Below the pieces are notes generated by a model. That model had not been told where the DNA came from and did not search any database. It saw nothing but the letters and a program-made list of their open reading frames with translations. The position numbers were made by a program, and so were the translations under genes. Of a DNA stretch of 64,000 nucleotides, positions 4,565-21,978 are shown one piece after another (positions within the stretch are counted from its first letter, which is position 1; every line of letters begins with the position of its first letter). Source of the stretch: Parafrankia irregularis (GTDB lineage Bacteria > Actinomycetota > Actinomycetes > Frankiales > Frankiaceae); contig NZ_FAOZ01000018.1 in the NCBI RefSeq assembly GCF_001536285.1, positions 62,001-126,000 of the forward strand, read 5' to 3'.

Positions 4565-4649
4565 ATCTGATCAGGCTAGCGGTACTCGGCGTGATCTCGG
4601 CAACCGGCCTGCCGCGACGACCACGCCGATCGTCAGCTACGCCTGCTAC

Positions 4650-5285: not shown

Positions 5286-5474
5286 GGAAACTGAGATCCT
5301 CTGCTTGCGCGGGACGCCGGCACGGCAGGCAACACCGCCGCCGCGTTCGGCGCCACGCTCCGGACGAGCTGGCTGCACATGTGCAGACGACTGTAGAGGA
5401 CCACACACCGACCACCCGCGACCCGGCTGCGGCAGAACACCCCGGCCGCACCGAACGCCCTGGGCTGCTCGCTC

Positions 5475-6833
5475 CTACATGCTCGCGATCAGCTTGTCCA
5501 CCCGGTCGTCGACCGAGCGGAAGGGGTCCTTGCACAGCACCGTGCGCTGCGCCTGGTCGTTGAGCTTCAGATGGACCCAGTCCACCGTGAAGTCGCGCCG
5601 CTTCTCCTGCGCCCGCTTGATGAACTCCCCACGCAACCGGGCCCGGGTGGTCTGCGGCGGAACCGACTTGGCCTCGAAGATGTCGAGGTCGCGGCACACC
5701 CGCTCGACCAGACCGGCCCGCTCCATCCGGTAGTAGAGCCCTCGCTCGCGGTGGATGTCGTGGTACTTCAGGTCCAGTTCGGCGACCCGCGGCGACGACA
5801 ACGGCAGGCCGTGCCGATGCCGGAACCGGTCTATCAGCACGTATTTCGTCACCCAGTCGATCTCCCGGGCGACAAGCTCCAGATCCTCGGTCTCGATGGC
5901 CAGCAGGGTACGGCCCCACAGGTCGAGAACCCGCTTCGCGACGGCGTCCCCGCCGCGCCGCTCGACGAACTCCACCGCCTTCGCGTAGTACTCACGCTGG
6001 ATGTCCAGCGCGCTCACCTCGCGGCCGTTGGCGAGCTTGATCCGACGCTGGCAGGTCATGTCGTGCGAGACCTCGCGGATGGCCCGGATCGGGTTCTCCA
6101 GCGACATGTCCCGCAGCACCACACCAGCCTCGATCATGCGCAGCACGAGGTCCGTCGAGCCGAGCTTGAGCAGCATCGTCGTCTCGCTCATGTTCGAGTC
6201 ACCGACGATGACGTGCAGGCGACGGAAGCGCTCCGCATCGGCGTGCGGCTCGTCGCGGGTGTTGATGATCGGCCGCGAACGGGTTGTCGCCGAGGACACC
6301 GACTCCCAGATGTGCTCGGCGCGCTGCGAGATGCAGTAGACCGCGCCACGCGGAGTCTGCAGCACCTTGCCCGCACCGCACAGGATCTGGCGGCTGACCA
6401 GGAACGGCACCAGCACGTCGGCCAGCCGGCTGAACTCCCCGTGCCGGCCGACGAGGTAGTTCTCGTGGCAGCCGTAGCTGTTCCCGGCCGAGTCCGTGTT
6501 GTTCTTGAACAGATGGATGTCGCCCGCGATGCCCTCCTCCCGCAGCCTGCGCTCGGCTTCGACGAGGAGGCCCTCCAGGATGCGTTCACCGGCCTTGTCG
6601 TGTGTGACGAGGTCCGGCACGGAATCGCACTCGGGAGTGGCGTACTCCGGGTGGCTACCGACGTCCAGATAGAGCCGGGCGCCGTTCTTCAGGAACACGT
6701 TGCTGCTGCGCCCCCAGGACACGACACGCCGAAACAGGTACCGCGCCACCTCGTCCGGAGACAGCCGCCGCTGCCCTCGGAACACACAGGTGACGCCGTA
6801 CTCGTTTTCCAGGCCGAAGATGCGGCGATCCAC
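5475..6833 (-). CDS. pafA: Pup--protein ligase PafA
   Basis: PafA joins the C-terminal Glu of Pup to substrate lysines through an ATP-dependent phosphorylated intermediate. From the GTG at 6833 ([16 protein letters not shown], after an AGGG at 9 bases) the protein is 452 aa, the length of mycobacterial PafA. Visible family motifs are GLENEYGV near the N-terminus, [20 protein letters not shown] with the catalytic-base Asp, [21 protein letters not shown], the [12 protein letters not shown] segment and [11 protein letters not shown]. Pup here ends in Gln, so it must first be deamidated by Dop. The upstream ABC-2-like membrane gene ends only 10 bases away, so the two are probably co-transcribed. 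prcA lies about 13 kb to the right. Confidence 0.97.
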
Positions 6834-6843
6834 GAGACCGACC

Positions 6844-7956
6844 CTATGCTCGGAAGCCCTCCTCGCGCGGCGAGACGCCATGGCTGATCTCGAGTCCACC
6901 CTCTCGGGGTCGTACGATCTGCCCCGTCGCCGGCGTCGTGCCCACCTCCGCGGGGGCGGGCTCACCCGGCAACGGGGCTTCCGGCCCACGGGCGAGCCCG
7001 GCGCCGGCCCGCTCCCGGCCGACGAGCATGAGCGCGATCCCGACCACGGCCCAGATCGTCAGCACCGCCGCGGCCCGGCCCCCACCGGCCCCGTCGAAGT
7101 AGAGCGTCGACCGCGCCAGGGTCACCCCCGCTCCGGGCGGCAGCAGCTGGCCGAACCCGCCCCACGGGGTCGGCAGCATCTCCGGCGCCGACGACGCCCC
7201 GGACAACGCCACCCCGACCACCGTCAGGGCGACGGCGGCGACGAGTCCGCGCACAGCGGCCACCGCGCCCAGCCCCATCACGGGCGCGGTGACCGCCGCG
7301 GTGATCACGGCCAGCACGACCACGCTGCGCAGGAAGTTGTCGGGCAGCACATCAAGACCACCGCTCAACGCCAGCGTGCCAGCCACCCCACCGGCGACCA
7401 CGAAGCACGACAGGCCCACGAGACGCTGCTGCCGGGACCGGCCCGAACGTGCCAGCAACACGCCCACCGCCGCGGCGATCAGCACCAGCGGCAGGTACCC
7501 GGCCGACACCCCGCCGCCCTGATGATCGGCGGCGGCGTTCGGGACGACGTCCACGACCGGGATCCGCAGATCGGGAAACGTCATCGCCATTCCGCGCACC
7601 AGCGCCTCGGCGACCGCCGGGCTGGCGGCGGAGGCAAGCCGCAGCGACAGGCCGTCCGCGGTGAAGACGAACGCCGCGTACGCCTTGCGGTCGCGCAGTG
7701 CGCGGTCGGCGGCATCGGCGTCGGCGACGACTGTCACCCGCATGGCACCGGGTGACATGTGCTCCACCTCGTCCATGAACGCCTGTGTCGACTGCGCCGG
7801 TCCCGCCACGAGCACGGGCAGGCCACGAGGACGCACGGAGGTGACGGTCGATCCGTAGAGGCAGACGATCAGGCCGAGCAGGACAGCCATCCCCACGGGC
7901 AGCGCTGCCGCGCGACGCACCCCGGTCAGGCTGCGGCGTTCCACTGTCAGCACCAT
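6844..7956 (-). CDS. Polytopic membrane protein resembling an ABC-2-type/YhgE-like permease, no ATPase partner
   Basis: This 370-aa protein has one N-terminal membrane helix ([19 protein letters not shown]), a soluble extracellular domain of roughly 110 residues, then five to six helices and a hydrophilic cytoplasmic tail. This layout, with the [16 protein letters not shown] loop, resembles the permease part of ABC-2 exporters and YhgE/Pip-type proteins. No ATP-binding gene is adjacent. It starts at ATG 7956 behind GGAGG (a GTG one codon earlier is also possible) and ends 10 bases before pafA. That spacing suggests one transcript with pafA, but any functional link to pupylation is inference. 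Substrate unknown. Confidence 0.7.
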
Positions 7957-8279
7957 CACGCCTCCACTACCTGTCCACTACCTGGCTGCCTGCCCACTAC
8001 CTGGCCACCGTCGGCGGCTACTGCCCTACACAGGGCGACCAGGGGGCAGCGTCCCCCAGGTCAGGGCGTCCGGGTGGGGTGGCATCAGGGGTGGCGTGTC
8101 CGGGTGGGATCACACCGGAGGCCACATCGCCCACGTCACCGACACCGCGGCGGAAAAGTGCGCGCCGCGGGCGTCGACCACGACCCGGCCGCAACCGGGT
8201 GGGAGCGGAAGCGGGATCCGAAGCGGGAACATCGGCCCGGATGGTGCTGCCCTGCCCCGCGCGGGGGAAGGATGGCCGC
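7957..8279. promoter_or_regulatory. Divergent intergenic region with short direct repeats
   Basis: This roughly 320-bp gap separates the leftward membrane protein-pafA transcript from the rightward hydrolase gene, so promoters for both should lie here. Three imperfect copies of a CACTACCTGnC-type motif occur between about 7970 and 8003, and a CGTCCGGGTGGG/TGTCCGGGTGGG pair occurs near 8068-8108. I cannot place a convincing -35/-10 pair. Confidence 0.4.
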
Positions 8280-9038
8280 ATGACAGCCGAGGCCAACGAG
8301 AAGCACACGCACGACCATCTGCGAACCGAGGTGGCGGCCCGGGACCGCACGCCCGCGACCGTGACCGCCCCTGCCGCCGACGACCCGCCGCGCGCCGGGA
8401 TCGTGGTGATCCAGGACGCCCGCGGGATCACCCCCTACCTGCTGTCCGTCTGCGACGAGCTGGCCGATGCGGGCTATCTCGCGATCGCGCCCCACCTGTA
8501 CCACCGGGACGGCATCGCCGAGGTCGACCCCACCGACGGCTGGGCCGGCGCGATACCGCAGATGGGCACGCTCACCGGTGACGGGATCCACGCGGATGTG
8601 GATGACTGCCTCGCGCACCTGAGCGACGTCGGCCTCGACCCGTCCCAGACAGCCGTCATCGGCTTCTGCATGGGCGGAACCGTGGCGCTGGCCACGGCGA
8701 GCCGCCGGCCACTCGCCGCCGCGGTGTCGTTCTACGGCGGATCGGTCAGCACCTCCGCCTGGCCCGGAGTGCCCCCGCTGCTCGACATCGCGCCGGCGCT
8801 GATGGGCCCCTGGCTCGGCCTGTACGGCGAGGAGGACGCCCTGATCCCGCTCACCGACATCAACGAGCTTCGGGTCGCCGCGGCCCGATCGGGCCAGCCG
8901 ACGGAGCTCGTCAGCTACCCGGGCGCCGGCCACGCCTTCCACAGCCACGACCGGCCGGCCGTCCACCGCCCCGAGGCAGCCGTCGACGCATGGCGGCGGA
9001 CGATCGACTTCCTGGACCAGCGGGTGCGCCCGGCCTGA
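8280..9038 (+). CDS. Dienelactone hydrolase family protein
   Basis: The 252-aa alpha/beta hydrolase starts at ATG 8280 behind GGGGGAAGG; upstream in-frame codons look non-coding. The catalytic triad is visible: Cys130 in the nucleophile elbow GFCMGG, Asp186 in YGEEDALIP and His218 in GAGHAF. The Glu that usually follows the first strand is Asp here (VIQDARGI), as in some actinobacterial members. Dienelactone hydrolases open lactone rings during chlorocatechol breakdown, but many relatives act on other esters and no aromatic pathway genes are nearby, so the substrate is open. It runs toward the M20 dipeptidase gene and ends 66 bases from it. Confidence 0.9.
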   Translation: MTAEANEKHTHDHLRTEVAARDRTPATVTAPAADDPPRAGIVVIQDARGITPYLLSVCDELADAGYLAIAPHLYHRDGIAEVDPTDGWAGAIPQMGTLTGDGIHADVDDCLAHLSDVGLDPSQTAVIGFCMGGTVALATASRRPLAAAVSFYGGSVSTSAWPGVPPLLDIAPALMGPWLGLYGEEDALIPLTDINELRVAAARSGQPTELVSYPGAGHAFHSHDRPAVHRPEAAVDAWRRTIDFLDQRVRPA

Positions 9039-9104
9039 GCAGGCCACGCGTCGGCACGCCCGGCGGTCCGTGAAGGGATGCCGCGAGGCGGACCGAAGAT
9101 CTTT

Positions 9105-10460
9105 TCATGCCCTCGACGGGCGCGCGAGGCCGTGCAGGAACCAGATGCAGGTGTCCACGGACCGCCAGAAGACCTCCAGGTTCAGTTGCTCGTTCGGCCC
9201 GTGGATGCCCGCGTCGGGCAGGGTGAAGCCGAGCAGCACGACCGGGATGCCCAAGATGTCGCGCATGAGGGACACGGCCGGGATGGTGCCCCCGGAGCGG
9301 AGCAGAACCGGCGATCGCCCAAAGCCATGCCGATAGGCCTGCGCGGCCACCCGCATCGCGGGATGGCCGGGCATGGTCTCCGCGGGGCCGGTCGAGGAAA
9401 CCACCCGCAGTGTGGCCCGGACCGTGGTCGGCAGCGTGGCGGCGATGTGGCCGCGCAGCGCCTCGACCACTGCCGCAGGGTCCTGGCCAGCCGCCACCCG
9501 GACGTTGACAATCGCCGACGCACGACCCGGAATCGCCGTCACCCGATGGTCCCCGGACCGCAACGAGATCACGTTGAGCGCTGGAAGCAGCGTGGTCCGT
9601 TCGTAGGCTGTCGGACCGGCCATCCCCCACAACGGCCTGCCACCCGCACTGCTGCGGAGCTGCGCGTCGGTCGGCCCGTGCGTCCGCATCCGGCGCCGCT
9701 CGGCGGGCACCGGCACGCGCACCCCGTCGTAGAAACCGGCGACGGCAACCCGGTTGTCCGGGCCGTGGAACGACGACAGCAGATCGGCCAGGGCGTGCGC
9801 CGGATTGTGAACGGCCCCACCGAACGCCCCGGAGTGCACATCACGTGGCTGACCGCGGACCTCGATCTCGAAGGTGATGGAGCCCCGCAGCGCGTAGACA
9901 AGCGCCGGCCGGTCCGGCCCGAGGATGCGGGTGTCGGACACCACGGCCACGTCCGCCGCCAGCTCGTGGCGGTGACGGAACAGCGCGGCCCGCAGATGCG
10001 GGCTGCCGATCTCCTCTTCGCCGTCGAAGACACAGCTCACGTTCAGCGGTAGCTGGCCCGCACTGCGGATGACCGCCGTCAGCGCCGCCACGTGGGCCAT
10101 GATCGGCCCTTTGTTGTCGGCCGCCCCGCGCCCGACGAGGTTGCCATTGCTGACCACCGCCGTGAACGGGTCGGTGCGCCACCCGTCGCGAGGTGCCGGC
10201 TGTACGTCATAGTGCCCGTAGACGAGCAGATGCGGCCGGCCGGGACGATCCGCCGAATGGCCGATCACCATCGGGGGCCCACCGCCGGTCGGCACGAGGC
10301 GGGTGTCGGCGAGCCCGGACCGCCGCAGTCGCCCGGCCAGCCATTGCGCGCAACGCCCCAGGTCGCCGGCCTGGCCCGGTCCGGCGCTGACGGACCGGAA
10401 CCGCAGGAAGCGGGAGAGATCTGCCACGACCTCCCTGCGCGCCGCACGCGCCGCGGACAT
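9105..10460 (-). CDS. M20-family metallopeptidase (dipeptidase)
   Basis: The 451-aa enzyme carries the M20 di-zinc site. HYDVQP (His83, Asp85) gives the first ligand and the auxiliary Asp; GRGAADNKG (Asp115) is the bridging ligand; GEEEIGS (about 148-150) holds the catalytic and ligand Glu; a C-terminal GIHGPNE gives the last His. An insert dimerisation domain lies between about residues 190 and 330. I start it at ATG 10460, since a longer frame would overlap the previous gene by over 130 bases. It begins only 20 bases after that gene on the same strand, so it is probably the last member of the accessory operon, where a peptide-trimming role is conceivable. It could equally be a general carnosinase/CNDP-like dipeptidase. 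Confidence 0.9.
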   Translation of the reverse strand: MSAARAARREVVADLSRFLRFRSVSAGPGQAGDLGRCAQWLAGRLRRSGLADTRLVPTGGGPPMVIGHSADRPGRPHLLVYGHYDVQPAPRDGWRTDPFTAVVSNGNLVGRGAADNKGPIMAHVAALTAVIRSAGQLPLNVSCVFDGEEEIGSPHLRAALFRHRHELAADVAVVSDTRILGPDRPALVYALRGSITFEIEVRGQPRDVHSGAFGGAVHNPAHALADLLSSFHGPDNRVAVAGFYDGVRVPVPAERRRMRTHGPTDAQLRSSAGGRPLWGMAGPTAYERTTLLPALNVISLRSGDHRVTAIPGRASAIVNVRVAAGQDPAAVVEALRGHIAATLPTTVRATLRVVSSTGPAETMPGHPAMRVAAQAYRHGFGRSPVLLRSGGTIPAVSLMRDILGIPVVLLGFTLPDAGIHGPNEQLNLEVFWRSVDTCIWFLHGLARPSRA

Positions 10461-10480
10461 CGCGGCGCGTGGACCTGCCG

Positions 10481-11620
10481 TCAGATCACACCCCGGGTGG
10501 CTCCCCGCCCACTCTCCGCCATCGGTCGCAGCGGTGCCCGGCCCTGAAACGGCAGGACCCGCGCCCCTGATCGCCGTTCCGCCGCGCCGAGCGCCTCCGC
10601 GCTGGTCAGCCACTCCTCGGCGTACTCGGCGATCTCAAGCAGCAGCATCTCGAACTGCACCCGGCTGGTCTGCAACAGGTGCGGTTGCGCGAGCCATCGC
10701 AGCACCTCACGGCCGGCAACCGCCATCCGCTGCCGCGGAGAGGTGACCAGACGCTCGTGGAAGTAGCGGATCAGCACCTCCTCGACCACGTCCCACGCGT
10801 TGTCCGCACCGAACAGCCGCCTGATGTCGTCGGACTCCAGCACGCGGAATGCCTCGTCGAGTACCTGCATCACCTCCACCCGCAACACGTTGAGGTGGCC
10901 GAACGAGGCGAACTTCAGGTTGTTGCGCAGGTCGAGGCCAGCCCGGCGCACCACCGCGATGCTGCCGAAGCTCGGGTCGTAGGAGCGCTCCCGAATAACG
11001 TCGGAGATCCGCTTGTCCCGCCAGAAGAGCGCGACCTGGTTGACGAAGTGGCTGTACTGCCGATGGAACTCCACGTTGCGCCGGGATCCTCGGGGTACCG
11101 CGGCGGCCCCATAGCCCAGTACCCGCGCGTAAGCGGCGGCTCTGTCCCGACGGGTGTAGCGCAGCACGTCACGCCGGTCGAACTGGTAGAGGCCGTAGGC
11201 GCCGGGGCCGCCCGACAACCGGACGGTTCCGGCCCGGAACAGCTCCTGGAGCTTGCGGACGACCCGGAAAACCCCCAGCCGCTCGTGCTGGTAGATGTAG
11301 TACAGATCGCCGACGGCGATCATCCTCTCCGAGGTGACCGACTCGTCGTAGGGCACCACCCCGGTCGGGATGCGCGTCTGCCCCAGTTCCTGTGCCGCTT
11401 CCGGCCCGACGCCGATGAGCGCCGCCAGCCCCCTGTCCGGCGGCACCGGCTTGGCCGCGTCCGCGGCGACGACACCCGCCAGCAGGTCGTCCACCTGACG
11501 CACCAGCGCATCGGCGAGCTGCGGATTGGCGATGAGGTCGGTGCCGAGTTGTTTGGCCAGCTGCTCCCGCAGGCCAGCGACGCGGTCGTACAGGGCCTGG
11601 TACTCCTGCTCCGTTGCCAT
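10481..11620 (-). CDS. Unrecognised 379-aa protein of the accessory operon
   Basis: I do not recognise this family. It starts at ATG 11620 directly behind GGAGGAGGAG, a very strong ribosome binding site. The N-terminal 50 residues look helical and possibly coiled (YQALYDRVAGLREQLAKQLG). The middle part is rich in aromatic and basic residues (GDLYYIYQHERLGVFRVVRKLQELF, YTRRDRAAAYARVLGYG), followed by FVNQVALFWRDKRISDVIRERSYDPSFGSIAVVRRAGLDLR and a helical C-terminus. No signal peptide, membrane span or catalytic motif is evident, so it is probably a soluble cytoplasmic structural or adaptor protein. It follows the 527-aa unknown by 59 bases and precedes the M20 peptidase by 20 bases. Confidence 0.8.
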   Translation of the reverse strand: MATEQEYQALYDRVAGLREQLAKQLGTDLIANPQLADALVRQVDDLLAGVVAADAAKPVPPDRGLAALIGVGPEAAQELGQTRIPTGVVPYDESVTSERMIAVGDLYYIYQHERLGVFRVVRKLQELFRAGTVRLSGGPGAYGLYQFDRRDVLRYTRRDRAAAYARVLGYGAAAVPRGSRRNVEFHRQYSHFVNQVALFWRDKRISDVIRERSYDPSFGSIAVVRRAGLDLRNNLKFASFGHLNVLRVEVMQVLDEAFRVLESDDIRRLFGADNAWDVVEEVLIRYFHERLVTSPRQRMAVAGREVLRWLAQPHLLQTSRVQFEMLLLEIAEYAEEWLTSAEALGAAERRSGARVLPFQGRAPLRPMAESGRGATRGVI

Positions 11621-11679
11621 CTGCTCCTCCTCCAGCCGACGCCTGGGCCGGGTCCAGGGCCTCGCCGACCACCGACCGG

Positions 11680-13263
11680 CTATGCGACTCGCACGTCCTG
11701 AGCCAACTGATCCACCCGACGCAGGTAGGCGCGCAGCTCGTTGAGTGGGTGACGGACCCGGGGATGACGCATTCCGGCCGGCAGCCCGGGGTCGAACCCG
11801 ATCGCCCCCAGCAGGTCCTCCACCAGCCCCCCGAGCCGGCCGGCGGTGGTGATGACAGCCCCCATGGCCCGCCGCCCGCCTTGTTGCACGAGCTCGCGGG
11901 CCTCCTGGCCGGCAAACGAGGCGATCCAGCTCAGCAGCTCGGAGACGAGCATCGCCCGGCCGTCACTGGTCCGGAACTGGGCCACGTTACGCTCCGCGCT
12001 GCCCACGAAGACCGAATCCAGGGCGGCGACGACCTCGTCGGTGGACTCCGCCACCACCTGCAGCGCGGTCGAGAGCAACACCAGCCGGGTTCCCAGATCC
12101 CGCCCGAAGGATCCGTCACGGAACGTCTTCCAGCTGGCCTCGACCGTCACGATGTGATCCTGCAGCAGCAGGAAGGAGGAGAGGTTCTGCTCTTCGGCCA
12201 CGGTGTTGACCCGGCCCGACTCGAGCCCGAAGACCCAGCTCAGATAGCCCACCATCCCGCCGCGGACCGGTTTGTTGCCGATACCGATGACATCCTGCTT
12301 GAGCAGGATCTCGAACAGGTCGTCAACTCGGGGTACCCGAGGGCCACCCTCCGCCCCGAGCTCGTTGACCACGGCGCTGAACTCCGCCTGAATGATGCTG
12401 CGGGCCGCGTCCATCTCCTCGACATCGACGTCCGCACGCAGCGGTGTGAGGCCGTCCAGCAGCGGCAGGACGGCGGCGAGCGAATCCCGGGCACGCGCGT
12501 ACAGGCTCGCCTGCGCCCCGGTCACCGCCCCACCCAGCTCCGTCTGGCCGACGTAGCTGCGCGGCCGCCAGGTGACCACCGATCTTCCCGCGACCTCCGT
12601 TCGGTCGAAGGACGCGTTCAGCGCCGCGACGAACGCCGTGCTGTCGGTGTGACGGGGCAGCCTTCCGAGGGTCTGCTGGATGGCGCCGTCCACGATGCGC
12701 TGCAAGCTGTCACGGCCGGCGCCGGGTGCGGCCGAGCCGCCGCGCAGCCCGCCCGAACCCCCGAGCCCGCCGAGATCGGCGGTGAGGATCGGGTAGGACG
12801 CGATGTCGTCGACGGCGCCGCGGATCCTCCCGATGTTGTAGGACGGCCCACTCGGCCAGCTCCCCGCAGCCTCCAGTTCCTCGACGGCCTCCGTCGCCAC
12901 GTCGTCGACCGCGTCGATCAGGGACCTGTAACGCGCCACGTCGCTGCTGGGCGCGAGCCTGTCGCTCGCGGCCTTCACCTCGTCCGTGACGCCTCTCCGG
13001 ACCAGCTCCCGGGTTGCGCGGAGCTCATTGAGCGCGAACTCGAGAACCCCCGCCATGCTCGGCTTGTCGCGCACCTGGGCCGCACTGTCGCGCAGCCGTG
13101 CCCCCTGCCTCCGGGCCGCCTGCAGGAAGGTGCTCAGATTTCCGGCGGATTCGTGCTGGCTGTTCTGCTGGAGCAGGGCCTGGACTGCGATGATCGCGTC
13201 AGCCAGCTCGTCGCACTGGTGAGCCAGCGAGAGCAGCGTCGATTCGACCGCCCGGTAGATCAC
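11680..13263 (-). CDS. Unrecognised 527-aa helical protein of the accessory operon
   Basis: I do not recognise this family. Its GTG start at 13263 overlaps the stop of the PUD-domain gene by four bases, so the two are translationally coupled. The sequence is mostly alpha-helical, with coiled-coil-like N-terminal helices, a short Gly-rich insertion (LGGLGGSGGLRGGSAAPGAG) around residues 166-185, and a C-terminal half with long amphipathic helices. A mildly hydrophobic stretch (VSELLSWIASFAGQEA) is not a clear membrane span. There is no signal peptide or nucleotide-binding motif. The coupling suggests a stable complex with the PUD-domain protein; that is inference. Confidence 0.8.
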   Translation of the reverse strand: MIYRAVESTLLSLAHQCDELADAIIAVQALLQQNSQHESAGNLSTFLQAARRQGARLRDSAAQVRDKPSMAGVLEFALNELRATRELVRRGVTDEVKAASDRLAPSSDVARYRSLIDAVDDVATEAVEELEAAGSWPSGPSYNIGRIRGAVDDIASYPILTADLGGLGGSGGLRGGSAAPGAGRDSLQRIVDGAIQQTLGRLPRHTDSTAFVAALNASFDRTEVAGRSVVTWRPRSYVGQTELGGAVTGAQASLYARARDSLAAVLPLLDGLTPLRADVDVEEMDAARSIIQAEFSAVVNELGAEGGPRVPRVDDLFEILLKQDVIGIGNKPVRGGMVGYLSWVFGLESGRVNTVAEEQNLSSFLLLQDHIVTVEASWKTFRDGSFGRDLGTRLVLLSTALQVVAESTDEVVAALDSVFVGSAERNVAQFRTSDGRAMLVSELLSWIASFAGQEARELVQQGGRRAMGAVITTAGRLGGLVEDLLGAIGFDPGLPAGMRHPRVRHPLNELRAYLRRVDQLAQDVRVA

Positions 13264-14441
13264 GACTTTCCGCCTCTGCTCTCGATCTCCCGCTCCAGCT
13301 CATCCACCCGTACCGCGACATCGCCGCCCGGCCGCAGGCCGACGAGCAGGGTCTCCACCGGCCCCGGCACCTCTTCGTTCGATTTCTCATACGCGTCGAC
13401 CACCTCGTCGACGACCTGACTCATGCTGTTCCTGAGGTGCTGGACGTCGCCGAGGATGTCCGCCTCCAAGCGGCCCGGATCGTGCGGCCCGGGTCGCTCC
13501 CGTACCGCGGTGACCCTGGCCTTCATGCCGGCCGCGACACCGCGGACGAAATCGAGGCGCCCCAGCAGCGCATCGCGGCGCGACAGCGGCCGCGGCTCGA
13601 CGCCAACGACAGGCACCGACACCCGGCCACCTGCCGGCCACGACGCGAGACCAGGCAGTGGCTCCTCCTCCCGCGGCAGGCTGTGCGCGGCACCGAGAAG
13701 CTTCTGGCGCTCGTGGTCCAACGCCTGCGTGACCACGTCCAACCCGGCATCGGCCGCGGCGGCCAGCGCCAGCGCGTCGGCATTCCCGCCTTCCTCGGGC
13801 GGGATGAGACGTCCGAGGAAGGCTCCGATCCCCGAAGACAGACTGTCCAGGCTTTCACCGATGCTGGTGATCGTTTTCTGCTGGTTCTCCACGGTCGTCG
13901 CGATCCGCGCCACCGCTGCCTGCCCGCTGCGGGCCTGGGACTCGATCTCGTCCAGCGCGGAGACGACAGCCGTGATCTGGCTCTCGACAGCGTCACGTGA
14001 GGACGTGGATGTCGGCGGGATGCGCGGCAGGTAGCGCACGGCCTCACCGCCGGCCGTGTCGCCGGAGAAATACCAGACCTCGTACCCGTGCTGGGCGAAG
14101 ATCAGCTTTTGCCGGTGAACTTCCGCGGGGTCGGACCTGGCGGGCGCCCTGCCCCGCTTGGAGTCCGTCCCCGAGCTCGACGAGGACCTGAGGGTATAGA
14201 CGAGTTCGGGCGCGTCGTACGGCACGGAAATTTTCCAGAACAGGCCGAATTCATCCGTATCGTCAGGCCCCGTGACTCGCCTGTCGCCGTCGACGTCGAC
14301 TTCCAACGACCAGCCGTCGTATCTCCCGTTTGGCCGGCGGTAGTGAAAGGTCACCGTCCTGGTCCTCGCTGACTGCTCCTCCCGCTCCTCCCGCGCAGGG
14401 ATGCCGGAAGGATCGCCCGCATCCGCAGAGGTCTCGATCAC
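13260..14441 (-). CDS. Protein with N-terminal pullulanase-associated (PUD/CBM41-like) domain and helical C-terminus
   Basis: Residues about 28-135 resemble the pullulanase-associated domain. The features are a YRRPNGRYDGWSLEV opening like the YHRPDGxYxxW signature, a GLFWKISVPYDAPELVYTL middle and a closing YEVWYFSGD like the EIWxxxGD signature. In pullulanases this beta-sandwich binds alpha-glucans. Here it is fused to about 250 mostly helical residues with a coiled-coil tendency (DEIESQARSGQAAVARIATTVENQQ) and no glycosidase. There is no signal peptide. The GTG start at 14441 follows GGAGG and lies 6 bases after the HEVSH gene; the stop overlaps the next gene. The domain call rests on pattern memory and could be a chance resemblance. 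Confidence 0.7.
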   Translation of the reverse strand: MIETSADAGDPSGIPAREEREEQSARTRTVTFHYRRPNGRYDGWSLEVDVDGDRRVTGPDDTDEFGLFWKISVPYDAPELVYTLRSSSSSGTDSKRGRAPARSDPAEVHRQKLIFAQHGYEVWYFSGDTAGGEAVRYLPRIPPTSTSSRDAVESQITAVVSALDEIESQARSGQAAVARIATTVENQQKTITSIGESLDSLSSGIGAFLGRLIPPEEGGNADALALAAAADAGLDVVTQALDHERQKLLGAAHSLPREEEPLPGLASWPAGGRVSVPVVGVEPRPLSRRDALLGRLDFVRGVAAGMKARVTAVRERPGPHDPGRLEADILGDVQHLRNSMSQVVDEVVDAYEKSNEEVPGPVETLLVGLRPGGDVAVRVDELEREIESRGGKS

Positions 14442-14447
14442 GAGCGT

Positions 14448-15806
14448 CTACCTCCTGGCCAGCTCTCGGTAGAAGTTGGTGGTGATCAGTTGAGGTGAGG
14501 CAAGTCGGCGGTCGACAGCGAAACGGGCGGCGCCGATCAGGAAGCGTTCCGGCACAACACCTGGATCGTCTCCGGTCGCGAGACGCCTGGCCGCCTCCTC
14601 GATCATCTGCTGTTCCTTGGCCTCGAACCGCAGGACCTGGGCAAGTGACCGGTTGCCGAGCGAAGGAAACGCCGTGTAGCACATCGCGTCCACAACCACC
14701 CGGTGCGCGTCGGGAAAGGTCGCCCGAAGCGGGCCGGGAAGCGACCTCGCGGCCGCGGCCGGATAGACCCGGCTCCAGATTCTCCGGAACAGGTCGGCGT
14801 CCGCGGTCAGCCCCATCCGGCGCAGCAGCTCAATACTCAGGTAGACCCGCAGATACGGCACCGGATGCGGGCCCCGCGGGTTGTAATGGGTCACGAACTG
14901 CGGGCTTCTGCCGATCACGTCGAACAGGGACGAGACCACCGCCGGCCCGCCAAGCAGCAGGCCGGCAAGGTCGGCGAAGGTCTCCCGGTTCCATCGGACC
15001 CACACCGCCGCGACCGGAGCCGGTATGCCCTCAGCGCGCAGCCGATGGCCCACCAGCGCCGGAACGGCCCGCGCGAGTCCCAGGTCGTTCTGCAGATTGT
15101 GGGACACCTCGTGCAGGATCGCGCCGAGCGTCCACGGGTTCACCAGTCGGTGATAAGGAAGCTGGATGAGCGGGAAGGGGTTGAGATGACGTCCGAGTCG
15201 GCGCAGCGGGACCCCTCTCCGGAAGGTCGCCGGAGAGAATCCCGTCCGCATATAGGAGAAGGCCGCGGGAGCGGGAATCGATCGGGCCCGACCGAGACCG
15301 AGGTAGGCGTACTGGTAGCAGTCGAGAGCGATCCGGTCACAGCCCAGCAGCCACGTCCCGAACCGTGACTGACGCTGGCCGAAGAGCTCGAAGTAGAAAT
15401 CCCAGATCTGCTCCGCCCGCCGCGCGGCGTCATGCGCCGCCTCCTTCTGCCGCACGACTCGCCGCAGGTGGTCCCGCGACGGCACGTTCGTCGCCGCCAG
15501 GACCATCCGGTCCAGTTCTCGTGCCCGCAGCCGCAACTGCCCGCGCAGCAGATCGACCAGTTCGTTGGCGGCAGCGACCTGCCCTTCGGTCGGCGCCTCC
15601 GGCCCGGTGCCGAACTCGGCGCGAGTGAACGGGCGCAGCGCCGCCACATGCCGGCCCGCGTTGTCGGACTGAACCCGGACCCACGTGAGCAACTCTCTGG
15701 GCACCGGGCCGATGCCGGGGCGGGGCGCCGGGGAGCGGCGTGCGCCGGCGCGTCGTGCCGCTGGAGTTCCTCGTGTCCCCGGCAAGGTCGGGGCACGGGT
15801 TGTCAT
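14448..15806 (-). CDS. Putative zinc metallopeptidase with HEVSH motif
   Basis: The 452-aa protein has an HExxH motif in a hydrophobic helix (LGAILHEVSHNLQND, His232-Glu233-His236). About 39 residues later comes NRETFADLAG, whose Glu275 could be the third zinc ligand, as in gluzincins. No signal peptide is evident; the first 35 residues are Arg/Pro/Ala-rich. I place the start at ATG 15806 because upstream in-frame sequence overlaps the previous gene. The flanking sequence does not match a peptidase family I can name, so activity and fold are inferred from the motif alone. It follows the Glu-repeat gene by 106 bases and precedes the PUD-domain gene by 6, so it is clearly in the operon. Its substrate could be an operon partner. 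Confidence 0.7.
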   Translation of the reverse strand: MTTRAPTLPGTRGTPAARRAGARRSPAPRPGIGPVPRELLTWVRVQSDNAGRHVAALRPFTRAEFGTGPEAPTEGQVAAANELVDLLRGQLRLRARELDRMVLAATNVPSRDHLRRVVRQKEAAHDAARRAEQIWDFYFELFGQRQSRFGTWLLGCDRIALDCYQYAYLGLGRARSIPAPAAFSYMRTGFSPATFRRGVPLRRLGRHLNPFPLIQLPYHRLVNPWTLGAILHEVSHNLQNDLGLARAVPALVGHRLRAEGIPAPVAAVWVRWNRETFADLAGLLLGGPAVVSSLFDVIGRSPQFVTHYNPRGPHPVPYLRVYLSIELLRRMGLTADADLFRRIWSRVYPAAAARSLPGPLRATFPDAHRVVVDAMCYTAFPSLGNRSLAQVLRFEAKEQQMIEEAARRLATGDDPGVVPERFLIGAARFAVDRRLASPQLITTNFYRELARR

Positions 15807-15912
15807 GTACCCACCGCCTTCTGGAATCGTCGCCTCGCCCGCCAGTGCTGCCGCACCCGGGTATGGCTGCCAGTCGCGCAGGCAGTCCAACCACGGGTGG
15901 CCAAGTCCCGGT

Positions 15913-17100
15913 TCAGATGCGCCGGGGCACCCCGCGGGCACCCGCGGTCGCCCGAGGGATGACCCGGCCACCGCTGAGCGGGACGACCCGGGCAGGAACC
16001 AGCCGGCCGCTGGGCGTGCGGGCAACCACTACTCCTGGCGGTGGCCGCCGCACACCGCTCGGCGGGCGACGGAGACCGGCGCCCGCCGCCCTGGTCGCCG
16101 CAACCGGACGCGCCACCGTGCGGGTGGCCCGCACGTTGCGAGCGGCGACGTTGGAGATGACCCGCGGATTGGCGAGAACACGACGTGTCTGCTGCGCCAT
16201 CACCTGACCGGCGATCCGGCGGTTCACCGGGAGGCCAGCGCTGGCCCGCCGGCTCAGTGTTCTGGCGGTGCCGCCCACGATGTGGGGGACAGTGCGGATT
16301 ACCTGCCGGGTGTCACGCCGCCGGTGGAGGATGCGGGTCAGCGCTGCCATGCCGTGCACAAGATGGGGCAGGAGTTCGAGAAGCGCACGGCGGTCACGAG
16401 CTGTCAGCACCTGTATAGTCGCCGCGCCCACGTACGCCTCGGCCTCGGCCTGCGTGTGCGCACGGGTCGCGGCCGCCGCCATCATCTCCGCGACTGCCCG
16501 GCTCCTCGCCGGTGTGGCCTCCAGCTCTCCTTCCAGCTCGCCCTCGCTCTCCGCCTCGCTGAGTGCCTGCGCGAGCCGACGGGCCACCAGACCACCGGCG
16601 GGTCCGGCGACCGCGGTGCCGACGATCTGAGCCGCATGGGGGGCGAGCCTGCGGGCTATGGGAGCGACTCTGCGCAACGCCCGCCGGATGAACTCCTCGC
16701 TCTCGAACTCGCCTTCCCACTCACCCTCGTACTCGTACTCGCCCTCGAGTTCCCACTCGCTCTCGAACTCGCCTTCCCACTCACCCTCGAGCTCGTACTC
16801 GCCCTCGAGTTCCCACTCGCTCTCGAACTCGCCTTCCCACTCACCCTCGAGCTCGTACTCGCCCTCGAGTTCCCACTCGCTCTCGAACTCGCCTTCCCAC
16901 TCACCCTCGAGCTCGTACTCGCCCTCGAGTTCCCACTCGCTCTCGAACTCGCCGGACGCGCCGCCGAGCGTTCCTCTCGCCCCGCGGAAGCGAGACGAAA
17001 GGATCGCCTCCTCCTCCGCCTCCAGCTCGCTCTCCCCCTCACCCTCGCCTTCCAGTTCGAGCTCCGCCTCGTACTCGAGCTGCCGCTCACGCGTGCTCAT
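15913..17100 (-). CDS. Glu-rich 20-residue repeat protein with basic C-terminal domain
   Basis: The 395-aa product starts at ATG 17100 behind GGGAGG. Residues 1-50 are acidic. Residues 51-130 are four nearly identical 20-residue repeats (EFESEWELEG then EYELEGEWEG), so Glu and aromatic/Leu residues alternate, which would favour beta-strand or extended structure. Residues 136-200 hold a Gly/Ala-rich stretch (IVGTAVAGPAGGLVARRL). The rest is strongly basic, with TRQVIRTVPHIVGGTARTL and QTRRVLANPRVIS segments and a Pro/Arg tail. The protein is thus sharply bipolar. I recall uncharacterised proteins of this Glu-repeat plus Arg-tail architecture in other bacterial phyla, but cannot cite them. No signal peptide. 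It is the first gene of the accessory operon, opposite the LuxR gene. Confidence 0.8.
   Translation of the reverse strand: MSTRERQLEYEAELELEGEGEGESELEAEEEAILSSRFRGARGTLGGASGEFESEWELEGEYELEGEWEGEFESEWELEGEYELEGEWEGEFESEWELEGEYELEGEWEGEFESEWELEGEYEYEGEWEGEFESEEFIRRALRRVAPIARRLAPHAAQIVGTAVAGPAGGLVARRLAQALSEAESEGELEGELEATPARSRAVAEMMAAAATRAHTQAEAEAYVGAATIQVLTARDRRALLELLPHLVHGMAALTRILHRRRDTRQVIRTVPHIVGGTARTLSRRASAGLPVNRRIAGQVMAQQTRRVLANPRVISNVAARNVRATRTVARPVAATRAAGAGLRRPPSGVRRPPPGVVVARTPSGRLVPARVVPLSGGRVIPRATAGARGVPRRI
16697..16953. repeat. 60-bp coding tandem repeat, about 4.3 copies
   Basis: The period is exactly 60 bases. The three 60-base blocks beginning at 16741, 16801 and 16861 are identical at every base; a fourth flanking copy near 16697-16740 differs by two bases and the array ends partway through a fifth. 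It encodes the 20-residue Glu repeats of the minus-strand gene. Identity at silent positions points to recent expansion or gene conversion, so copy number may vary between strains. Confidence 0.95.
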
Positions 17101-17161
17101 GCAACCTCCCTCGGCTGGTGAAGCAGTCCTGTTGTAGCCCCAGCCGACGGTCGGCGCGTAG

Positions 17162-17249
17162 TCACTCGAAAGCAGGAAACTCGCTTGTGGTCCCTTTTCG
17201 ATGGTCGCACGTTCGAGTGATTGCGCGAACGTCGATATCAATTTATTAT
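17162..17249 (+). promoter_or_regulatory. Candidate promoter and operator for the LuxR gene and the divergent operon
   Basis: A hexamer pair TTGCGC (17221-17226) and TATTAT (17244-17249) is separated by exactly 17 bases, giving a sigma-70-like promoter reading right, about 58 bases before the LuxR start. Immediately upstream is a perfect 9-bp inverted repeat, TCACTCGAA at 17162-17170 and TTCGAGTGA at 17212-17220, with 41 bases between the arms; the right arm abuts the -35 box. The AT-rich stretch at 17230-17256 stands out from the GC-rich surroundings. The arms could be operator half-sites for the LuxR protein and could also act on the leftward operon. Confidence 0.55.
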
Positions 17250-17307
17250 TGGGCATTTGCACCGACACGCCGCCAGAGGGCGGGGTGACGAAGGGGGCGG
17301 TGATCAA

Positions 17308-17793
17308 ATGCCCGGATCGCCTTTCGGCGACCGCACCACGAACCAGGTTCCTCACCAACGAAGTCGCACACCTGTCGAGACGGCACTCCGGCGGCTCCTC
17401 GCCGCAGTCGACGAGTCCGGGTGCACGGACCAGAGCACCCTGTTGCTCGACATCACCATCGAAGGCCGCCGCTACCTGCTTACCCGCACACCCAGGAGTC
17501 CATTTCCAGAAAACGCGGAGATACTCAGCCCCCGCGAGCAGGAAATCGCGCAGATGGTAGCCAGGGGTTACACAAACAAAGAGATAGCACGCACGTTACA
17601 AATCAGCACCTGGACAGTCTCCACTCACCTGCGCAGAACATTCGCCAAGCTGTCCGTCTCGACCCGCGCCGCTATGGTGGCCCAGCTTTTCGACACGTCC
17701 CCCGCGCCGGCGCCGACCACCAGGCCCATGGGGACGGTGGTCCTCGGGTCGTCAGCCCCGGGCTTCACACCCGACAGTTTCCGGCAGCCCTGA
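17308..17793 (+). CDS. LuxR-type helix-turn-helix transcriptional regulator with a TTA codon
   Basis: The 161-aa protein starts at ATG 17308 behind GGGGGCGG. Its C-terminal part has the LuxR/NarL DNA-binding domain at about residues 73-117 (LSPREQEIAQMVARGYTNKE then IARTLQISTWTVSTHLRR). The N-terminal 70 residues match neither a receiver nor an autoinducer-binding domain I know, so the signal is unknown. It is divergent from the Glu-repeat operon and probably controls it. The gene is less GC-rich than its neighbours and has an in-frame TTA leucine codon at 17596-17598 (residue 97) inside the helix-turn-helix. TTA is rare in such genomes, suggesting acquisition or tRNA-limited control. Confidence 0.88.
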   Translation: MPGSPFGDRTTNQVPHQRSRTPVETALRRLLAAVDESGCTDQSTLLLDITIEGRRYLLTRTPRSPFPENAEILSPREQEIAQMVARGYTNKEIARTLQISTWTVSTHLRRTFAKLSVSTRAAMVAQLFDTSPAPAPTTRPMGTVVLGSSAPGFTPDSFRQP

Positions 17794-18228
17794 CGCGAGA
17801 ACACGGCCGCGCCGGCCGACACCGCTGGACGGCGTGGCAGGTACGCCCGGTCTGAGCGGACCACGTGCCGGCGAGCCCGCGGGGTGTTCTCCCCGCGGGC
17901 GGGGCACACGGGACCGCAGGCGGCGCGAAAACCGGTGGGCGCCGCGGCGCCGGCAAGGTAATGTCCCGACCCGCGAGCGAGCACGACCAGAATCACGGCG
18001 CCTGACCGGCCCGGGCTGGTCAGGTCGCTGGCGGCACGTGATCGAGCAGGTGAGAACACGGGAGAGGGTGGCCATGGCCGCGCGGATTTTGACCACTTCA
18101 GATGAGTCGTTCCGTCCTGTCCGCAAGGCCTCTGTCTGAGCCCCGCCACGACCAGCCAGCCAGCCCGGCCGGGTGGTCTCGAGTTCGCCTGGCGGGCTCA
18201 GGGAGGCCTCATCCCGAAGGTCTCCACC
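17794..18228. other. Intergenic region between luxR-type gene and rsgA
   Basis: About 435 bases on the rightward strand. The only open frame with a good ribosome binding site is the 21-codon frame at 18074, listed separately. A GC-rich partly self-complementary stretch near 17875-17945 may form a weak terminator for the regulator gene. I see no convincing promoter hexamers. Confidence 0.4.
18074..18139 (+). CDS. Possible 21-aa leader peptide upstream of rsgA
   Basis: An ATG at 18074 follows GGAGAGGGTGG at good spacing and opens a 21-codon frame (product begins MAARILTTSDESF, ends VRKASV) closed by TGA, about 90 bases before the rsgA start. The ribosome binding site is better than that of rsgA itself. 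I do not recognise the peptide. It may be a regulatory leader, a tiny protein, or chance. Confidence 0.3.
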   Translation: MAARILTTSDESFRPVRKASV

Positions 18229-19509
18229 TTGTCTTCTCGTATTCCGTCATCCTCGCAGAATCCGCCGTTTCCCCGGGATCCCTCCCTACCGCCAACCCTC
18301 GCCCCCCGGTCACCCTCCTCCGTCGGCCTCCCGGCGGGCTCGCCAACCGCGGGCCCACCACCCGCAGCCCCGGGCACGCCGCGACCTCTCCTGAGCCGCT
18401 ACGGCTGGACCGAGGAGGACGAAACCGCGTTCGCGGCCCGTCGCCAGGCGGGTCAGTCACCGGCCCGGGTCGTCCGGCGCGACCGGAGCAGATGCAGCCT
18501 GATCAGTGAGCACGGGCCGTGCGAGGCCGAGATCGGCCGGGACGTCGCGGTCGATCCGCTCCTGTCCGCGTGCACCGGCGACTGGGTTGCCCTGGGCGCA
18601 CCCGACCCGCGGCGACCGGCGACGAATGACCCGGCCAGCACCACAGTGATCCTCGAGGTACTTCCCCGACACAGCGTGCTGGTCCGCGCCACCGTCAGCG
18701 GGCGCTCCACCGGCCAGGCTCTCGCCGCGAACATCGATCTGGTGCTGGTCGTCGCGGCGCTCACCGAGCCACCACGAATGGCCCGGCTGGAACGGCTGCT
18801 CGCACTGGCCTGGGAGAGTGGTGCCAGACCACTGATCGTCCTGACGAAGGCCGACCTGGCTGCCGCCGGAACGGCCGCCCACGCGGCATGGCTGCCTGCT
18901 GCGGCGGCAGCAGCACCCGGCGTCGACGTCCTCACCGTGAGCGCCACGGCCGGACTCGGCATGGACGAACTGCGCGGCGAGCTGGCCGGGCCCGGCCCAG
19001 CCGGTCGCTCCGCCGTGCTCGTCGGACCTTCCGGCGTGGGGAAGTCCACCCTCGTCAACGCCCTCGTCGGCACGGACCTGCTCGCCGTCGGGCCCGTACG
19101 GGCCAGTGACCGGAAGGGCCGGCACACCACCGTCCGCCGGGAGCTGATCGCCCTGCCCGCCGGCGGAGTGCTGATCGATACTCCCGGCATCCGCGGTGTC
19201 GGGCTCTGGGGGGCCGGTGATGGCATCGACTCGACCTTCGCCGAGATCACCGAGCTTGCGTCCGGCTGCCGGTTCACCGACTGCGAGCACAGCTCCGAAC
19301 CCGGATGCGCGGTGCTCGCCGCGGTCGAAGACGGCTCCCTGCCCAGTCGAAGGCTGGCGAGCTACCGAAAGCTCCAGCGGGAAAGCACCTGGATCCAGGC
19401 CCGTCACGACGCCCGGCTCGCCGCCGAGGAACGGGCGCGGTGGAAGAGCACCCACAAGGAGATGCGTCGGCTGTACGCCGACCGTGAACGTCAGGGCCGG
19501 TATCGATGA
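18229..19509 (+). CDS. rsgA: Ribosome small-subunit-dependent GTPase RsgA
   Basis: RsgA is a circularly permuted GTPase that acts in late 30S maturation. The permuted motif order is visible: G4 (VLTKAD) near residue 205, the SA loop (TVSATAGLG), then G1 (GPSGVGKSTL) near 265, the G2 region (RKGRHTTVRREL) and G3 (DTPG). The C-terminal zinc site CRFTDCEHSSEPGC follows. An N-terminal OB-like part precedes the GTPase. The TTG at 18229, with GAAGG 8 bases before it, gives 426 aa including about 55 Pro/Ser-rich residues not expected in the family. The true start may be further downstream, near LSRYGWTEEDE. It converges on prcA. Confidence 0.93.
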   Translation: MSSRIPSSSQNPPFPRDPSLPPTLAPRSPSSVGLPAGSPTAGPPPAAPGTPRPLLSRYGWTEEDETAFAARRQAGQSPARVVRRDRSRCSLISEHGPCEAEIGRDVAVDPLLSACTGDWVALGAPDPRRPATNDPASTTVILEVLPRHSVLVRATVSGRSTGQALAANIDLVLVVAALTEPPRMARLERLLALAWESGARPLIVLTKADLAAAGTAAHAAWLPAAAAAAPGVDVLTVSATAGLGMDELRGELAGPGPAGRSAVLVGPSGVGKSTLVNALVGTDLLAVGPVRASDRKGRHTTVRRELIALPAGGVLIDTPGIRGVGLWGAGDGIDSTFAEITELASGCRFTDCEHSSEPGCAVLAAVEDGSLPSRRLASYRKLQRESTWIQARHDARLAAEERARWKSTHKEMRRLYADRERQGRYR

Positions 19510-19563
19510 GCCGGACCTGACGGTGCAGCAGCCGAGCCCCCGGGGCGGCAGGGCTGGCTGAGC

Positions 19564-19603
19564 CACCGCGCCGTCCCGGGGCTGGCCCCGGGACGGCGCG
19601 GTG
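19564..19603. terminator. Bidirectional hairpin terminator between rsgA and prcA
   Basis: Perfect 18-bp arms (CACCGCGCCGTCCCGGGG and its complement) with a CTGG loop lie between two convergent genes, 55 bases after the rsgA stop and 16 bases before the prcA stop. No T-run follows, as is usual in GC-rich actinobacteria. Confidence 0.85.
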
Positions 19604-19618
19604 AGACAACCGCCCGTG

Positions 19619-20347
19619 TCAGGACGAGGAGGGTGCGGACTCCGCCAGGAGGCTTTCGAGCTGGCTGCCGGCGATCCGCTTGAACAGTCGCCGGCTGCGG
19701 GTGCGGTCGAGCATCGCGACCTCGAGGTTGGCGGCCGTCAGGGTGCGCTCGCCGTTCTGTGCCGTTCCCGGAGGGGCACCGGCAGTCAGCGCGGACACGG
19801 CGACCCTCAGCGCAGTGGCGAGCGGCTGGCCCTCGGTGTGGTGCTCGCGCAGCGAGGTCATCACCTGCTCGGACTGCCCACCGATCGCGATGAAGCCACG
19901 CTCGTCCGCGATCGAGCCGTCGTAGGTCAGCCGGTAGATCTGGTCCGCCGCGGCGGTCTCCCCCACCTCGGCGACGACGATCTCGACCTCGTAGGGCTTG
20001 ATGCTCTCGGTGAAGATCGCGCCCAGCGTCTGCGCGTAGGCGTTCGCGAGTGCCCGGCTGGTGACGTCGCGGCGGTCGTACATGTAGCCCCGCGTGTCCA
20101 TGATCCGGATACCCGCGGTGCGGAGGTTCTCGAACTCGTTGTACTTGCCGACCGCGGCGAAACCGATGCGGTCGTAGATCTCGCTGATCTTGTGCAGGGT
20201 CGAGGACGGGTTCTCCGCGACGAAGAGGATCCCGTCCACATAGGTCAGGACGACCACGCTCCGGCCGCGGGCGATGCCCTTGCGCGCGTACTCGGACTTG
20301 TCCCGGACCTGCTGTTCGGGACTCGCGTAACCGAACGGCATGGTCAC
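19619..20347 (-). CDS. prcA: 20S proteasome alpha subunit PrcA
   Basis: PrcA forms the outer gating rings of the bacterial 20S proteasome. The GTG start at 20347 ([13 protein letters not shown]) follows AGGAGG by five bases and lies one base after the prcB stop, so translation is coupled. The 242-aa product has the alpha-subunit N-terminal H0 segment ([26 protein letters not shown]), which binds the ATPase ring, and the usual core ([40 protein letters not shown]). It lacks the catalytic Thr, as expected. The C-terminal Ser-rich tail is short. It pairs with PrcB and with the ARC/Mpa ATPase encoded to the right. Confidence 0.97.
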
Positions 20348-20348
20348 G

Positions 20349-21170
20349 TCAGCCTCCTGGGTTCTGCGCGCGGGCGTCGATGAGCGACTCGACCACCGGG
20401 CCGACCTCGTCATCGGTGAGGCGGCGGTAGCCGTCGGCGGTCACCGAGGCGACGATCGGGTACAGCTTGCGGATCAGGTCGGGCCCACCGGTCGCCGAGT
20501 CGTCGTCGGCGGCGTCGTAGAGAGCCTCGATGCTGATGCGGACCGCGTCGTCGGCGCTGAGGTCCGGGCGGAAGCGCTTCTTGAGCGAGCCGCGGGCGAA
20601 GACCGAACCCGACCCGATCGACTCGTAGGTGCGCTCCTCGGACTTCGCCGCGGCGACGTCGTAGGAGAAGATCCGCCCCTGGCCGGTCTCGGTGTCGAAG
20701 CCGGCGAACAGCGGGATGACCGCGAGGCCCTGCATCGCCATGGGAAGGTTGCCCTTGACCATGAACGCGAGCCGGTTCGCCTTCGCGTCCAGGCTCAGCG
20801 TGGAGCCCTCGATCTTCTCGTAGTGCTCCAGCTCCACCTGGAACAGGCGGATCAGCTCGGCGCCCACGCCGGCGGTGCCGGCATACCCCACGCAGGAGAA
20901 CTCGTCCGCGTGGTGAACCTTCTCGACATCCCGCTGGGCGATCATGTGCCCCTGTGTGGCACGGCGGTCGCCGGCCATGATCACACCACCGGGAAAGGTC
21001 ACGGCCACGATGGTGGTGCCGTGAGCCGCGTCGGTCACCGGAGCGGGCAACGGGCCGCGGGCGCCCGGAAGCAGTTCCGGCGCCGCAACGGACAGGAAAT
21101 CGGTGAACGACGACGTTCCCGGCGTCATGAACACAGCCGGTAGACGCCCGACTCCCGATGGATCAGGCAC
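20349..21170 (-). CDS. prcB: 20S proteasome beta subunit PrcB with propeptide
   Basis: PrcB holds the proteolytic site. The mature N-terminal Thr is in [24 protein letters not shown], cleaved autocatalytically. Starting at the GTG at 21170, behind AAGGGGG five bases away, gives a 273-aa precursor with a 51-residue propeptide; starting at the ATG at 21128 would leave 37. The longer form has the better ribosome binding site and a length like other actinobacterial propeptides. The beta-subunit core includes the Lys33 region (GDRRAT...[16 protein letters not shown]) and the [15 protein letters not shown] loop. The stop is one base before the prcA start. pup lies 368 bases upstream. Confidence 0.97.
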
Positions 21171-21538
21171 GCATCCCCCTTCAGATAGTCGATCATTCCC
21201 CCCGGCAGCGTCGGATGGCCCCCTGGCCCAGCCCGCCGCCGGTGACGCACAACATGCCACGTGAGGTCGCGTGACGGGCGGCCGCAGTGGCAGTGGCCCC
21301 GCTCCGTCCCACCAGGGCCACACCGCGACCGGGCACTCGACCCGGCCCGATCCGACCCTCCATCGGGACCAACCGGACAGTGGGCCAACGCAGGGCGGGA
21401 GCAGCACCAGGGCAGGAGCAGCACCGGCCAGAGCAACTCAGGTCAGAGCAGCTCAGGTCAGAGCGCCGCAGCCCTCCGCGGGCCGGTCAGCCGGGCACGG
21501 CGAGTGCCCGACCTGACCGCCCGCGGGGACGACAGACC
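21171..21538. other. pup-prcB intergenic region with short repeats
   Basis: About 370 bases between pup and prcB on the same strand, longer than in compact pup-prcBA operons. On the plus strand it contains a short tandem repeat, GAGCARCTCAGGTCA twice and a partial third, near 21430-21465. I see no gene and no convincing promoter, but an internal promoter for prcBA could be here. Confidence 0.4.
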
Positions 21539-21757: not shown

Positions 21758-21978
21758 GGGAGCCTCCTTCGATCGCCTGGGGCGACACTATCCCGCTCCA
21801 CCGACAACTTCCGATGGACCGGTGCGTGCTCCACTCCATCACGAACCTGCGACGACGTCGCCTCGTCCGCCGAGGGCGCAAAAACTCCGACCACCCATGG
21901 CACCGTCCGCCATCCCCGGATGAACCGCCGCCTCGCGGTGCGGGCCTGCGGAGACACGCCCACCAGAACGATTGGGTG

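Follow-up and report, generated by a model that had tools for sequence, protein, structure and literature searches.

An apparently undescribed gene unit, inserted as one block in Parafrankia irregularis, that encodes a glutamate-repeat protein and a probable HExxH metallopeptidase

Introduction

Gene pairs consisting of a metallopeptidase and a peptide precursor have been described in actinobacteria, as part of the VMAP-ternary conflict systems (Kaur et al. 2020, PMC7159879). Another described setting of metallopeptidases is that of the extracellular contractile injection systems (eCIS), whose effectors and metallopeptidase DUF4157 have been surveyed (Geller et al. 2021, PMC8213781) and of whose loci 25.8% are accompanied by GerE regulators (PMC8213781). 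In Streptomyces, contractile injection systems work within the producing cell, where they mediate cell death (PMC10066040).

Here we analyze a unit of seven genes located in a 64,000-nucleotide stretch (hereafter, the window) of the 9.5-Mb genome of the actinomycete Parafrankia irregularis. A preliminary description of the window, made from the sequence without database searches, had proposed that six minus-strand genes and a divergent LuxR-type gene form a coherent, undescribed system. The unit is real and apparently undescribed; no description of it was found in the open-access literature (subscription papers lay outside the search).

Results

Borders and gene content of the unit

The closest congener (genome G020, ~95% identical) aligns to positions 1-9055 and 17837-23845 of the window with ~35 bp between the two segments; that is, a block of 8.8 kb (~9056-17836) is absent from it. 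This site, bordered by the dienelactone-hydrolase gene and by the rsgA/prcA side, is empty in all five congeners (G020 and four more). The LuxR gene and the six minus-strand genes make up the whole gene content of the inserted block, which is flanked on the plus strand by an imperfect 29-bp direct repeat, the left copy (9027-9055) being identical to the right copy (17844-17872) at 24 of 29 positions. No further such match occurs in the window, and the sister genome has a single copy at its empty site. Neither an integrase nor a transposase was seen in the block. Since the insertion has exact ends, the unit is defined independently of guesses about transcription, and we conclude that its genes are inserted and inherited together, as a single block. 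The insertion sits in a Pup-proteasome neighbourhood (5475-23874), where it separates pafA from prcA/prcB and dop.

In the order of transcription, the minus-strand genes encode GLU, a 395-aa bipolar protein with an acidic alternating-Glu repeat part followed by a cationic part (15913-17100); HEV, a 452-aa HExxH protein (14448-15806); a 393-aa protein that occupies a variable slot and in which a long tail follows an N-terminal PUD-like domain (13260-14441); P3, of 527 aa, with a conserved C-terminal and a variable N-terminal part (11680-13263); P2, of 379 aa, the most conserved member of the unit (10481-11620); and a 451-aa M20 family metallo-dipeptidase/deacylase (9105-10460). The re-measured gaps between them (106, 6, -4, 59 and 20 bp) agree with those first reported, and the packing suggests that the six genes form a single expression unit. 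The divergent gene on the plus strand (17308-17793, ATG at 17308) encodes a 161-aa LuxR-type regulator with a short conserved N-terminal piece, and faces the others, as had been described, across the 207 bp that separate the start codons (17101-17307). This is presumed to be the promoter region; no sigma-70 consensus was matched in it.

The ribosome binding sites, all of which had been called strong, are good Shine-Dalgarno-like sequences in GLU, P2 and the slot gene and fair in HEV and P3, and the claim was overstated for the M20 gene, whose site is weak. A hydrophobic N-terminal stretch was found in none of the six minus-strand products, in line with the reported lack of signal peptides. Pfam identified GerE in the LuxR-type protein (E 4e-17) and Peptidase_M20 (PF01546, E 3e-25) together with M20_dimer (PF07687) in the M20 protein, and assigned no family to GLU, HEV, P3 or P2. 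NCBIfam, PHROGs and PADLOC gave nothing convincing for the same four proteins, and profile searches of the PDB with P2, HEV and P3 gave no significant match. P2 and P3, which the preliminary description could match to nothing, are thus proteins of no Pfam family, and P3 in addition has no match among PDB sequences. A Csx1-like PADLOC match of P3 (E 0.009) was set aside as chance.

Recurrence in other genomes

A scan for P2 covering 84,980 species genomes identified intact loci in Mycobacterium sp. PS03-16, Jidongwangia, Nucisporomicrobium, two Chloroflexota and one cyanobacterium, all six of which keep the order GLU-HEV-(slot)-P3-P2, the cyanobacterial locus lacking a separate slot gene. A Paraburkholderia megaplasmid carries, in this order, GLU (two copies), HEV, a 190-aa protein, P3, P2, M20 and an amidohydrolase. 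These seven loci and that of the window constitute our comparison set of eight, which spans Actinomycetota, Chloroflexota, Cyanobacteria and Pseudomonadota (Paraburkholderia, a Betaproteobacterium). Among the 34 other genomes of the family, we found just three remote HExxH relatives, and P3 in none. Relatives of HEV or P2 were not found on viral contigs.

GLU lies immediately upstream of HEV in all eight loci, sometimes as two copies, and a LuxR-type protein with the same short N-terminal piece is encoded in seven (that of the window included), which supports its proposed place in the system; the cyanobacterium has a regulator of a different type. LuxR, GLU, HEV, the variable slot, P3 and P2 make up the core, behind which swappable hydrolase genes lie. 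Pairwise distances are correlated among P2, HEV, P3 and GLU (r 0.66-0.91; exact permutation test, seven loci), and the core genes therefore travel together. As the same gene order is found in seven other genomes and the congener has an exact empty site, the association is not due to chance. Profile searches and gene neighbourhoods thus bear out the proposal of a coherent system, the homologues of which occur together elsewhere.

Elioraea thermophila has a degraded copy of the unit (L027:7746-10555), also found in the P2 scan, in which HEV and P2 are in fragments; its genome has no Pvc16_N gene.

GLU and HEV

The bipolar nature of GLU, noticed in the preliminary description, proved to be a conserved feature, since in each of the 12 homologues the first part is acidic (-19 to -53) and the remainder basic (+22 to +35). 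In the window protein these charges are -53 and +32, Glu recurs at i,i+2 with a z-score of 9.8, and the DNA contains a 60-bp repeat in 4.3 copies (98% matches). Glu at every second residue, with aromatic or aliphatic residues or Gly between, is present in 11 of the 12 homologues (z 3.5 to 10 over shuffled sequences), and one Paraburkholderia copy has HEL-type triplets in place of the alternation. The basic part contains a cationic amphipathic segment in all homologues and a Gly-rich stretch in most.

HEV of Paraburkholderia is 58% identical to that of the window. Residues H232, E233, H236, E275 and D279 are invariant in the eight core HEV orthologues. The set of HExxH and a downstream ExxxD is also retained in remote relatives, with H232, E233 and H236 present in at least 90% of the sequences when those are included, and corresponds to the gluzincin pattern. 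In an AlphaFold model of partly low confidence (pLDDT 68.6), both motifs lie in helices, E275 and D279 in the predicted helix 273-286, and E275 would be the third zinc ligand. HEV is thus a probable zinc metallopeptidase with a gluzincin-like signature, as judged from its sequence motifs. No Pfam or NCBIfam peptidase matched it above cut-off, one member of the set giving a weak match to PF04228 (E 0.03), and HEV and nine relatives did not match the NCBIfam models of HExxH peptide-modification enzymes at E 1, a limit that a very remote relationship could escape. The invariant adjacency of the two genes, together with the motifs, is consistent with the proposed processing of GLU by HEV.

Remote HExxH relatives were observed in rhizobia and an actinobacterium (L014:4417-14139, L015:2815-12642 and L007:5305-17158), near genes for ATPase/STAND-like, CHAT, patatin and phospholipase D-like proteins and S8 or C25 peptidases. 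One remote relative matches the PADLOC model peptidase_U41.

P2, P3 and the variable genes

P2 is 71% identical to that of the window in Paraburkholderia and 53-80% identical in the six other loci, and the corresponding range for P3 over the eight loci is 25-54%. The two were considered as possible homologues of each other, and this was dropped (hhalign E 0.48). Remote homologues of P2 (hhalign E 1e-20) occur within proteins of ~600 aa on plasmids of Tolypothrix and Burkholderia pyrrocinia. In these plasmid loci (L019:7510-18728 and L020:3269-19426), the genes adjoin S8 peptidases, an amidase/papain-like fusion and at least one copy of an uncharacterized family of 370-480 aa.

The slot has at least three alternative occupants, namely the PUD protein, the 190-aa family and another protein, and different helical proteins are found there in most other loci. 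The PUD match of the window protein is barely above its cut-off (E 1.6e-5); an orthologue is present in L025 only, where the match has an E of 0.0017, and no match to the protein was found on plasmids. The suggestion that this gene encodes a glucan-binding domain is therefore weak.

M20 genes are present in six of the eight loci (those of the window, Mycobacterium, Nucisporomicrobium, Jidongwangia, one Chloroflexota and Paraburkholderia, or five of the seven outside the window), and genes for M15, trypsin-like, DUF2272, amidohydrolase or OmpA-like proteins also occupy this region in other loci. The nearest NCBIfam model of the window protein is the dipeptidase PRK08201 (379 bits, below the cut-off of 441). 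The M20 enzyme had been proposed to trim the products of HEV; being absent from some loci and encoded in a variable region, it is better regarded as accessory than as an essential partner.

A second, divergent type of module was observed in three actinomycete loci (L006:4347-16535, L048:8649-15193 and L049:6175-14053). It comprises a gene for a BTAD or LuxR regulator and one for a large protein with an acidic N-terminus, the latter preceding a gene for an HExxH protein to which HEV is homologous (hhalign E 2e-21). A gene for a P2-like protein is present as well, and two of the three loci additionally encode an NlpC/P60 or OmpA (cell-wall-type) protein. Between the two types, P2 gave an hhalign E of 0.003 and GLU one of 0.01, compared with 0.2-0.9 for unrelated pairs; for both families this is no more than suggestive of relatedness. 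A segment DENxLTDLVFxxRHPE, not described in Pfam, is common to a DUF2272 protein (L023:11114-12001) and an NlpC/P60 protein (L006:13407-16535). It was rejected as a system-wide targeting tag, as it occurs in only two loci and its plasmid matches are weak and out of context.

Co-occurrence with contractile injection systems

Seven genomes with an intact unit, that of the window included, were searched for Pvc16_N, the domain of the eCIS cap protein, and all of them encode it. The background, with the window genome excluded, is 7/34 in the family and 17/147 in the class, which gives Fisher p values of 1.5e-4 and 1e-6, respectively (4.5e-4 and 6e-6 without L023), values that ignore shared lifestyle and cross-phylum base rates. 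In Nucisporomicrobium (L023), sheath, Pvc16_N and AAA genes follow directly after the unit on the same strand. The unit of the window contains no sheath, tube or cap (Pvc16) gene, and the Pvc16_N gene of this genome is on another contig. In Mycobacterium sp. PS03-16 (L036), sheath and Pvc16_N genes are part of a contractile injection system locus.

Discussion

We propose, with a probability of roughly 0.4, that this is a horizontally mobile, LuxR-controlled unit making an unsecreted multi-protein assembly, with GLU as an effector released by HEV, P2 and P3 as a scaffold, and swappable hydrolases. LuxR would switch the unit on. GLU would be a pro-effector kept silent by its acidic alternating-Glu part, which would neutralize or mask the cationic amphipathic part, and HEV, acting as a zinc peptidase, would cut GLU and free a membrane- or wall-active part. 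P2 and P3 may serve as scaffold or docking parts that hold the assembly together, and M20 and its replacements may be accessory hydrolases of the same assembly, attacking protein or wall. The unit would probably act in a regulated response, either lysis or antagonism, perhaps in concert with the contractile injection systems of the same genomes; by analogy, an intracellular action such as that in Streptomyces would suit unsecreted wall and protein hydrolases.

Several points weigh against this proposal. The roles of all core proteins are ones that we infer, and it is their adjacency that points to GLU as the substrate of HEV. Fold searches with the HEV model (Foldseek, VIA-align) returned no peptidase, only chance helical matches, and the AlphaFold model of P2 (seven rows, pLDDT 38) is unusable. 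The larger acidic proteins show only weak homology to GLU (hhalign E 0.01), and the amphipathic-helix test takes the best segment of each protein, which biases its z-scores upward. We consider doubtful the related proposal of a previously unknown, self-contained mobile system, shared across phyla and having a fixed core and exchangeable hydrolases, in which the alternating Glu/hydrophobic repeat inhibits or assembles a cationic membrane-active domain that a dedicated metallopeptidase releases, with P2 and P3 forming a scaffold of new folds.

The co-occurrence data invite another explanation, according to which the unit is an accessory or cargo module of extracellular/cytoplasmic contractile injection systems, with proteins that travel in the injection particle or dock onto it. 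It would account for the enrichment of Pvc16_N in the genomes with the unit and its absence from the one with the degraded copy, for the same-strand eCIS locus in Nucisporomicrobium and for the GerE regulator, of a kind also encoded at eCIS loci. However, an eCIS adjoins the unit in just one of the eight loci, Pvc16 distances do not track those of the unit (r 0.08-0.32), and the genomes with the unit have more than one eCIS type. Moreover, the related second-type module in genome G032 occurs without Pvc16, as does the unit on the Paraburkholderia megaplasmid (where the search covered the megaplasmid only), and a lifestyle with large genomes and multicellularity could by itself explain the co-occurrence. 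We regard this explanation as unlikely.

We consider it quite improbable that the unit is a self-contained biological-conflict (defence or abortive) system, with HEV as the effector peptidase and P2, P3 and GLU sensing or restraining it. The patchy, insertion-borne distribution would fit such a system, as would the peptidase_U41 match of one remote HExxH relative and the fact that such relatives adjoin genes characteristic of conflict systems (STAND/CHAT, patatin and phospholipase); but PADLOC gives only chance-level matches for the structural proteins of the unit and generic HTH matches for LuxR, the unit has no NTPase or known sensor domain, and a protein with an alternating-Glu repeat is not a known component. 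Least probable, to our judgement, is a cassette that produces or modifies a peptide, with GLU as precursor, HEV as processing peptidase or iron/2-oxoglutarate HExxH hydroxylase, and M20 trimming the product, which takes up the idea of the preliminary description together with a variant of it. A precursor-like repeat protein does adjoin an HExxH enzyme, an arrangement with a precedent in the metallopeptidase and precursor pairs of VMAP-ternary systems (PMC7159879), yet the conservation of GLU spans the whole protein rather than a short core peptide, M20 is not conserved, the unit includes no transporter gene, and HEV matches no HExxH peptide enzyme in NCBIfam.

Under the proposal of a GLU effector released by HEV, GLU would represent a new activation principle, that of a protease-activated effector; if the unit does work with contractile injection systems, it would be a widely shared accessory to them. 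Four conserved families with no database match (GLU, HEV, P3 and P2) have been kept together and in order across four phyla and have moved as a clean 8.8-kb unit, and selection therefore maintains a joint function that apparently nobody has named. Because the borders are exact and a nearly identical strain lacks the unit, strains with and without it can be compared in a simple way.

Comparison with known systems

The unit resembles the VMAP-ternary pairs in that a zincin-like peptidase gene lies beside its presumed protein substrate in multicellular bacteria. In contrast to those systems, its seven genes encode no vWA, MoxR/STAND NTPase or VMAP domain, and where the partner there is a small FxSxx/RxD/acidic C-terminal peptide, here it is a large bipolar repeat protein accompanied by the core proteins P2 and P3. 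With eCIS effectors and DUF4157 the unit shares an HExxH protein, a LuxR/GerE regulator, hydrolase-type neighbours and the co-occurrence with eCIS, but HEV matches neither DUF4157 nor any Pfam peptidase above cut-off, and eCIS structural genes adjoin one locus in eight. Like thermolysin-like gluzincins, HEV has an HExxH motif with ExxxD 39 residues downstream, both in predicted helices; unlike them, it matches no known gluzincin family in sequence or, with an incomplete model, in fold. The M20 protein of the window is full-length and has the dimerisation domain, as in dipeptidases of the PRK08201 type, but it falls under the curated cut-off and is accessory rather than core. We found no known kind of system that the unit matches by a defining feature. 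As to function, the unit may turn out to be a form of a system already known; in gene content and organisation it appears to be new.

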